Origin: Clostridia bacterium
GTDB taxonomy: Bacteria > Bacillota > Clostridia > Oscillospirales > CAG-272
Assembly (NCBI GenBank): GCA_017410065.1
Contig: JAFQRL010000002.1
Span: 62,001-126,000 of the forward strand
Direction of reading: 5' to 3'
Length of the DNA stretch: 64,000 bases
Positions 60,601 through 61,843 of the stretch are shown one piece after another (within the stretch, counting starts at the first letter, position 1; each line of letters opens with the position of its first letter). The translations under genes and the position numbers were made by a program. A model generated the notes under the pieces. It searched no databases. It had not been told where the DNA came from and saw only the letters and a list, made by a program, of their open reading frames with translations.

Positions 60601-61002
60601 ATGTATACAAGTGCAAAGCCCTATTTCTACGGAACAGGCAGAAGAAAGAAGTCCGTAGCTAGAGTTCGCCTCTATCCCGGTACAGGCGTTGTTACCATCA
60701 ACGGCAGAGACGTTAATGACTATTTCGGTCTTGAAACTCTTAAGTATATCGTTAACCAGCCCTTCGGCGTAACCGAGACTGTTGGTAAGTTCGACATCGT
60801 TGCGAACGTTACCGGCGGCGGCTTCTCCGGTCAGGCAGGTGCTATCCGTCACGGCGTTGCCCGTGCCCTTCTCTCTGCAGACGAGAACTATAAGCCCCTC
60901 CTCAAGAAGGCAGGCTTCCTCACTCGTGACCCCAGAATGAAGGAAAGAAAGAAGTACGGTCTCAAGGCTGCACGTCGCGCACCTCAGTTCTCGAAGAGAT
61001 AA
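60601..61002 (+). CDS. rpsI: 30S ribosomal protein S9
   Basis: The 133-residue protein ends with the S9 tail [16 protein letters not shown], whose last residues reach the P-site tRNA, and has [18 protein letters not shown] near 10 and [19 protein letters not shown] near 79. It follows rplM by 19 bases with its own GGGAGG site. A terminator follows the stop. Confidence 0.98.
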
Positions 61003-61025
61003 TTTCGACCTTTGGTCGAAACTTC

Positions 61026-61058
61026 AAAAAGCACTTCGCATCAAGCGGAGTGCTTTTT
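61026..61058 (+). terminator. Terminator of rplM-rpsI
   Basis: AAAAAGCACTTCGC (61026-61039) pairs with GCGGAGTGCTTTTT (61045-61058), one G-T pair, five-base loop. Confidence 0.8.
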
Positions 61059-61085
61059 GTTATCTCTTGGATGAACTGAGGTGCA

Positions 61086-61293
61086 ATGAAATCTGCCTGT
61101 GGCAGAATAAATCCGCTTACGTGGATGAAATCGCTATCGCGATGAAATTCGACTTCGTCGGGTTATGGTGGCAGATTTCATATCACCCGAGGCTTGCCTC
61201 GGATTTCATCTGAACGTAGTGAAGATTTCATCCGCTTTTGCGGATTTCATCACCGTAGGTGATTTCATTTTCTTTCGCCGTAGGTGATTTCAT
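61086..61293. repeat. Array of small hairpins separated by ATGAAAT / ATTTCAT
   Basis: The 380-base gap between rpsI and the next gene is largely this array. ATGAAAT occurs three times in the left part (61086, 61125, 61142) and its complement ATTTCAT six times in the right part (61175, 61203, 61225, 61244, 61262, 61287). Between them sit different mini-palindromes such as TCTGCC/GGCAGA, ATCGC/GCGAT, CCGAGG/CCTCGG, ATCCGC/GCGGAT and ATCACC/GGTGAT. The left and right halves could also pair into one branched structure. No open reading frame is evident. Confidence 0.8.
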
Positions 61294-61310
61294 TTTCTTC
61301 CGCCGTAATA

Positions 61311-61339
61311 TTTACATTTCGGTAAATTTATGATATAAT
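61311..61339 (+). promoter_or_regulatory. SigA-type promoter of the orphan gene
   Basis: TTTACA (61311-61316), 17-base spacer, TATAAT (61334-61339) with extended TGA, directly after the hairpin array. Confidence 0.65.
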
Positions 61340-61381: not shown

Positions 61382-61843
61382 ATGTCACAAGAATATAAGT
61401 TTGAATTTAGTGGAACAAAGGACGATCTTACCCTTAAAATCAATACGTTGTTTAATCATTCCTATGGTAGATATCGTTATGACAACTATATAATAGATAT
61501 TGTTGATGAAGAAATCCGCTTTGGTGTTGAACGTGGTGGCCATTCCGGAGGATATTGGTATATTCCAACCATAACCGAATGTGGTGAAAAAATAGAACTT
61601 TGCGGAAGTATTAGTTATATAGGACCAGACGATAACAGAAACAAATTTCAGAAAGCAATTGATACTGTCAAGCTAGTTTTATTATTAATTGTATTTTCAC
61701 CCATTTTCTTGACGATTATGCTTTATAGTCTGGTAGAATCCATGATTAGAAAAATATTCAAACTAAAGAGACCAAAAAATACTGAAGATAAATTAAATTT
61801 TCTTATGGAAACGCATTTAGGTTGCGTAAGAAAATATAACTAA
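61382..61843 (+). CDS. AT-rich hypothetical protein with one membrane segment
   Basis: I do not recognise this 153-residue protein. The first 100 residues are polar and beta-prone (IIDIVDEEIRFGVERGGHSGGYWYIPTI), then a hydrophobic helix (about 102-124) and a basic C-terminal tail. Codon and base usage are visibly more AT-rich than in neighbours (many AAA, ATA and TTA codons), suggesting recent transfer. GAGGAAA precedes the ATG and a good promoter lies upstream, so it is probably expressed. Confidence 0.6.
   Translation: MSQEYKFEFSGTKDDLTLKINTLFNHSYGRYRYDNYIIDIVDEEIRFGVERGGHSGGYWYIPTITECGEKIELCGSISYIGPDDNRNKFQKAIDTVKLVLLLIVFSPIFLTIMLYSLVESMIRKIFKLKRPKNTEDKLNFLMETHLGCVRKYN

Follow-up and report, generated by a model that had tools for sequence, protein, structure and literature searches.

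A solo hairpin array behind rpsI in a Clostridia bacterium, probably a gene-less copy of an IVP-associated mobile element

Introduction

Intervening sequences (IVSs) of the 23S rRNA with S23/IVP genes have been known for more than 25 years, and in the account given by PMC4990558 their mobility has been suspected, and their origin, their movement and the role of the protein are described as unclear. The same source reports heptameric repeats, GACAGAT, upstream of the S23p ORF of Coxiella burnetii, two or three of them according to the strain, and the passages on rRNA insertions in PMC11270868 present 23S_rRNA_IVP ORFs of uncharacterised function with no mention of arrays. The target of diversity-generating retroelements (DGRs) needs a hairpin or cruciform at the 3′ end of the gene, with a stem of free sequence, a conserved 5′-GRNA loop and avd in trans, according to the relevant sections of PMC3240598. 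Finally, Gut-1 (Rfam RF01706) was graded certain as a noncoding RNA and reported only from environmental (human gut) sequences, in a description that names no protein partner and no second half (Weinberg 2010, PMC2864571).

In this study, we describe an array of mini-hairpins found in a stretch of 64,000 nucleotides (64 kb; hereafter the window) of a Clostridia genome. Its own genome is labelled G000 and other G numbers are relatives, which are drafts and in many cases incomplete; L numbers are loci. The family to which the array belongs resembles the 23S rRNA IVSs in its protein family, PF05635, and in having short repeats directly upstream of the ORF; it differs in that the repeats are spaced by mini-hairpins and occur in two polarities, that the elements stand at gene 3′ ends outside rRNA, and that the gene is mostly absent. 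Fuller sister copies contain the IVP (S23) gene directly behind the repeats, which the window copy does not, and the window copy follows rpsI rather than interrupting an rRNA gene. The kind of element, IVP/IVS, is already known but unexplained, and the IVP-linked bipolar hairpin array is its new part; apart from the IVS and Gut-1 papers, our literature search, which reached few subscription papers and preprints, turned up no earlier account of hairpin arrays linked to IVP. In mechanism, the nearest parallel is the DGR target, which resembles the arrays in being a DNA hairpin at a gene 3′ end with free stem sequence and a conserved loop. By that analogy the block may work in a somewhat similar way, but it is not a DGR: the own genome has no match to a reverse transcriptase (RVT_1; 5 of 24 relatives have one), the arrays are not one hairpin, and many of their loops are triloops as opposed to four-base loops. 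We conclude that the block is probably the cis-acting array of an IVP-associated mobile element, in a solo copy that lacks the gene and acts as DNA.

Results

Structure of the block

The initial annotation had described a non-coding block of 208 bases with three copies of ATGAAAT on the left, six of ATTTCAT on the right and differing mini-hairpins between them, and these coordinates and counts hold (Table 1); the block is indeed intergenic, lying between the end of rpsI and the start of the next ORF. Three features had escaped it, namely the long-range stem P1, an inverted copy of the rpsI end that directly touches the left edge, and a 25-nt duplication at the right end, which is a single unit in the orthologous array of a relative (L091) and bears out, to some extent, the growth by duplication that had been proposed. 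ATGAAAT and ATTTCAT are one linker that changes polarity between the two halves. The downstream ORF, to which no family could be assigned, was considered as an IVP relative and ruled out, since it is not PF05635/TIGR02436 (Table 1), so that the array is solo in the window; PHROGs gave no match for this ORF, nor for the IVP protein. Promoter-like sites are no more numerous in the array region than in shuffles.

Table 1. Features of the rpsI locus and the hairpin array (positions in the window)
Feature	Position	Strand	Basis or remark
rpsI (ribosomal protein S9), target gene; the element adjoins its 3′ end	60601..61002	+	ORF and sequence
rpsI 3′ end as palindrome arm, pairs with 61060–61084	60979..61002	+	Inverted repeats: 60979–60990 with 61073–61084, 12 nt, 100% (exact); 60991–61002 with 61060–61071, 12 nt, 92%
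Intrinsic-terminator-like hairpin within the rpsI-end palindrome	61025..61059	+	
Inverted copy of rpsI 3′ end, ends directly at array left edge	61060..61084	+	
Long-range stem P1, 5′ arm	61080..61097	+	18 nt, 89% complementary to 61170–61187
Left edge, first linker and hairpin 1 (left arm common with P1)	61085..61103	+	
ATGAAAT linkers (starts)	61086, 61125, 61142		
Remaining first half: mini-hairpins and TGAAAT-type linkers	61104..61165	+	Linkers at 61125 and 61142, a degenerate one near 61105
Subthreshold Gut-1 match	61104–61171	+	30.9 bits
P1 3′ arm, closes first half	61170..61187	+	
Second half: mini-hairpins with reverse-complement linkers	61175..61293	+	ATTTCAT x6
ATTTCAT linkers (starts)	61175, 61203, 61225, 61244, 61262, 61287		
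Subthreshold Gut-1 match	61175–61252	−	31.2 bits
25-nt tandem duplication, right end	61250..61299	+	96% identity
Promoter-like site 3′ of array	61311..61339	+	11/12 consensus matches
Downstream ORF, 153 aa, not an IVP gene	61382..61843	+	Not PF05635/TIGR02436

A blind array detector, which looks for any 6-mer linker, its reverse complement later on and hairpins between the copies, was run over the window in 635 tiles of 500 nt; it fired in the 4 tiles over the block and in 0/631 others. The pattern ATGAAATN{8,26}ATGAAAT has 38 matches in the own genome and the reversed control pattern 0, and with these two results chance or low complexity was rejected. The exclusion of CRISPR and of simple tandem repeats also stands: instead of constant repeats with non-palindromic spacers, the block has a 7-nt repeat unit and palindromic interiors.

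The mini-hairpins were said to differ in sequence and yet keep their symmetry, and this proved to be so across the family, a stem of at least 6 being present in 39.5% of 428 distinct interiors (the stretches between TGAAAT linkers) as against 0.6% when shuffled. Among 115 triloops, c(GNA)g was counted 37 times on the ATTTCA strand, compared with 3 on the opposite one, the counts hanging on the rule that the longest stem is taken first and then the shortest loop. GNA triloops are favourable in DNA hairpins. RNA UUCG tetraloops were considered as a sign of RNA function, and the count of C(UUCG)G is 0 on either strand. The RNA fold of 61050–61330 reaches −100.1 kcal/mol on the + strand (z −6.85) and −79.2 on the − strand (z −5.25), with 0/200 shuffles equally good on either strand, so the check that had been proposed, folding both strands, gives far better folds than shuffles for both. 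By this fold, the single large multi-branched structure envisaged in the initial annotation is possible; it is probably not the point, since the loop type flips strand together with the linker, from which we infer that one folded transcript suits the data less well than recognition of the two halves separately, each on its own strand of DNA.

Copies of the array

It had been stated that the lack of any second copy in the genome would speak against the array being more than an accident; many arrays were found, both in the own genome and in relatives. The printed own-genome copies, some of them cut by contig ends, have a common plan, in which a palindrome is followed by the P1 left arm with hairpin 1, then by two to three mini-hairpins whose linkers have one polarity, the right arm of P1, and at least three mini-hairpins with the reverse-complement linker. 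The P1 arms vary yet remain complementary (AAATCCGTC, AAATCCGCC, AAATCCACC and AATTTGCCC; GAAATCTGCC in the window). A first test of P1 pairing (102/103) was set aside as inflated, because linkers pair by definition, and the non-linker arms of 65 oriented arrays were used instead.

Three own-genome arrays, L082, L084 and L085, are identical pairwise at 170/174 positions, and their flanks are without similarity at blastn E ≤ 1e-3; being nearly identical in unrelated surroundings, they have spread. When GTDB contigs were scanned for GATGAAATC occurring three times with spacing, at least 113 stretches were returned, and among the matches listed most are Clostridia MAGs from animal guts and some belong to other taxa. 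Triple matches of GATGAAATC outside Clostridia (Prevotella, Nostoc, Desulfobacterales, Sulfurimonas and others) may be unrelated repeats.

The linker types comprise GATGAAATC, ATGAAAT, GTGAAAT, GTGAAGT, ATGAATTG, GCGATAT, GTGATAT, TATGTAATC, TATATCATC, AACATCAT and others. GTGAAGT arrays were seen beside a TGAAATC array (right flank of L085) and after the own-genome rlmD-like gene (L309, G000 contig C24), so that the own genome holds several linker types. At the left flank of L076, a TGAAATC array has beside it one whose linker is of the ATATCGC type.

The IVP gene and its linker

Immediately after the own-genome arrays L083, L081 and L072 stands the gene of a four-helix-bundle protein of the family PF05635, 23S_rRNA_IVP; the L083 protein falls in TIGR02436 and matches PDB 2rld at 3.6e-25. 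PF05635 has 7 matches in the own genome and is present in 18/24 relatives and 0/14 control genomes. IVP genes of the same genus are often directly preceded by an array of the same bipolar plan with a linker other than that of the window, and the gene stands on the second-half side. When the blind detector was applied to the 500 nt upstream of IVP genes, it found a bipolar array in 20/52 matches (19 distinct genes; one match without a locus, G015:C18, was left out), as compared with 0/52 downstream and 0/631 window tiles. By eye, an array and its linker could be assigned at 34 IVP loci. The IVP genes L245, L246, L256 and L259 have bipolar short repeats with no regular hairpins, and the IVP clade L226–L229 has a one-way short-repeat run or none.

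In the GTDB set, among the matches listed, an array stands no more than 400 nt away from 9/10 IVP ORF matches, and the 8 arrays in question all face the gene start, a figure that is not a free sample because the stretches had been fetched by their arrays. Only 8/116 arrays, again among the matches listed, have an IVP gene within 400 nt; the association therefore runs from gene to array and not from array to gene, and most arrays are solo, like that of the window. At the rlmD-like site of L305 (G013), L307 (G002) and L312 (G011), a non-IVP gene follows the array and starts at the position of the IVP gene, as if, judging from the sequence, cargo could be exchanged.

In the wider phylum (29 of 58 matches listed), many IVP genes follow short-repeat runs without hairpins; by script, at least three short repeats of period 6–9 are present upstream in 9/29 of these loci and in 1/255 control tiles. 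Such runs agree with the GACAGAT heptamers known from the Coxiella S23p ORF (PMC4990558). By eye, some of the phylum-level loci appear to sit within genes for 23S rRNA or RNase P RNA, L290 and L292 being apparent cases of the latter (identity by eye) with short repeats before the IVP gene. The Avd proteins of DGRs are relatives of the IVP proteins, and the IVP-family matches L299–L301, which stand after apparent DGR variable-gene ends with a hairpin, are probably Avd genes.

On the sequences compared, the linker tracks the IVP phylogeny. Of the 34 loci typed by eye, 3 were set aside because their protein matches were short; in 19/31 of the others (19/21 for linkers that occur repeatedly) the linker is the same as that of the closest IVP of a different genome. 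Among 10,000 permutations of the linker labels the best gave 10/31, and with neighbours below 75% identity the linker is shared in 9/31. The linker is the informative part of the array, because it changes with the associated protein. Linked inheritance alone could produce this agreement, which is not proof of recognition.

These results bear on whether the arrays are REP/BIME or MITE-type repeats moved in trans by a Y1 (RAYT) or other transposase. REP/BIME elements are dispersed intergenic palindromic units in opposite orientations, and the arrays are like them in these respects and in having near-identical copies. Nevertheless, the array stems lack sequence conservation, the linker differs according to IVP clade, and the own genome has no match to a Y1 transposase in a search that covered PF01797 (0 matches), which leaves mobilisation by RAYT/Y1 unsupported and makes this explanation quite improbable.

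Relation to Gut-1

The sole Rfam matches of the window block are to Gut-1, on opposite strands of the two halves (Table 1), at about 31 bits as against a gathering threshold of 50 bits. Like Gut-1, the window array consists of hairpins joined by UGAAAU linkers, and sister copies in the own genome, where Gut-1 has 50 matches at E ≤ 1, pass the cut-off (best 78 bits), unlike the window copy itself. Gut-1 is over the cut-off in 25/40 relatives and in 0/14 controls, 4/14 of which have a match at E ≤ 1. Judged from the alignments, what Gut-1 models seems to be the first half of an array of this type, and the family was probably built on sequences of this kind.

Could the array instead be transcribed and function as a structured noncoding RNA? 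Its strong folding, the matches on both halves, the abundance of Gut-1 in the own genome and its relatives, and the certain grade given to the family as RNA (PMC2864571, in the part that lists it) all speak for this. The window matches nonetheless score below the gathering threshold and lie on opposite strands, loop type flips together with linker polarity, the copies are dispersed, sister arrays with other linkers precede IVP genes, and the model seems to cover the first half alone; we therefore regard function as an RNA as unlikely and prefer an array that would act as DNA.

Probable insertion sites

Among the GTDB matches listed, a palindrome with a stem of at least 10 ends at the left edge in 62/64 of the arrays for which P1 gave an orientation and there was room enough, compared with 5/320 random positions and 2/55 right edges. 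Clusters that were not strictly + then − (38/116) and arrays without a non-linker P1 of at least 9 nt were not oriented. In 25 printed arrays, the palindrome lies 0–4 nt from the left edge. Palindrome variants of the GCGTGTTATCC..ACACGC type recur before the GTDB arrays L112, L119, L125, L134, L138, L142 and L147 and also precede L082, L084, L085 and L076; this type may travel with the element.

The target sites include the 3′ ends of tRNA, tmRNA, rlmD-like and rpsI genes. Of 24 IVP loci selected for scanning, 19 gave a tRNA gene and 1 a tmRNA gene, and tRNA-Gln(ctg) is used by different linkers (L225, L233 and L253). L274 is an IVP-type array with a tmRNA gene upstream.

With the window rpsI as query for the equivalent site in relatives, 20 loci were readable (L101 and L111 were left out, their 3′ ends being unreadable), and 14/20 are without anything of the array plan. 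The linkers at this site are TGAAAT (G000, G001), TTATGA (G014, G011) and TGAATTG (G004), with a stub in G012. An inverted copy of the rpsI end occurs in 6/20 loci, all with array or stub; it is exact over 12–16 nt in 3/6 and over 9 nt in the other 3, and follows base changes of the host (GCTCC with GGAGC in G004; GCACC with GGTGC in G000). L096 (G013) and L095 (G011) have a direct duplication of the rpsI 3′ end, which looks, from the sequence, as though a different integrating element had also used this site.

At the 3′ end of a second gene, which we take to be rlmD/rumA-like, arrays with three types of linker occupy 10/14 loci of the same genus and the other 4 are empty; six rlmD-like loci lacking the GHVE motif were left out. 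An exact inverted copy of at least 15 nt is present in 3/10 filled loci, the rest being imperfect by eye and one decayed. When G000 is compared with the empty G012 and G008, the sequences become homologous again directly behind the last linker (84% over 75 nt with G012). The palindromes of both sites contain an inverted copy of the gene's own end, and none was seen at empty sites, bar a 9-nt exact match in one array-less rpsI locus. From the dispersed copies and the filled and empty sites we infer that the element moves; no target-site duplication was noticed.

Two explanations in terms of the host locus have to be weighed here. Firstly, since arrays stand just after gene ends and terminators, they might be a 3′ UTR device, serving rpsI and other genes as a terminator or as hairpins that stabilise the mRNA; yet most readable rpsI loci of relatives are without an array, the same site carries different linkers, copies also follow tRNA and tmRNA genes, and there is the link to IVP genes, all of which makes such a device very unlikely. 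Secondly, palindromes and arrays might have grown by mutation only, through quasi-palindrome correction and slippage, with no element behind them, and the 25-nt tandem duplication and the symmetry with free sequence would agree with this. Filled and empty sites, dispersed copies identical at 170/174 positions, and a fixed plan joined to IVP genes argue against it, and we consider growth by mutation only to be extremely improbable.

Discussion

If the window block is the gene-less copy of an IVP-associated element that we take it to be, an IVP multimer would bind the linker-plus-mini-hairpin units of its own clade as extruded or single-stranded DNA, each half being bound on its ATTTCA-polarity strand. 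The bound IVP would then steer insertion of the array to the base of another hairpin, and fold-back DNA synthesis (template switching) by host enzymes at the target hairpin would generate the inverted copy of the target end. For the window array, which has no IVP gene of its own, the IVP of L083 on G000 contig C15, which belongs to the same linker class, could act in trans. We know of no nuclease activity in IVP proteins, and the catalyst is for this reason missing from the scheme.

A wider reading, which we put forward as tentative and rather doubtful, would see in these arrays a class of mobile DNA that has neither a transposase nor a reverse transcriptase of its own, in which a multimer of the IVP/Avd family reads a clade-specific linker and seeds arrays at the hairpin feet of gene 3′ ends with fold-back copying; the intervening sequences of rRNA, the Gut-1 "RNAs" and the target hairpins of DGRs would then be branches of one system. 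The interchangeable, clade-matched linkers and the filled and empty sites provide a direct way to test both IVP binding and the spread of the element, and the arrays offer a new reading of an orphan Rfam family, Gut-1.
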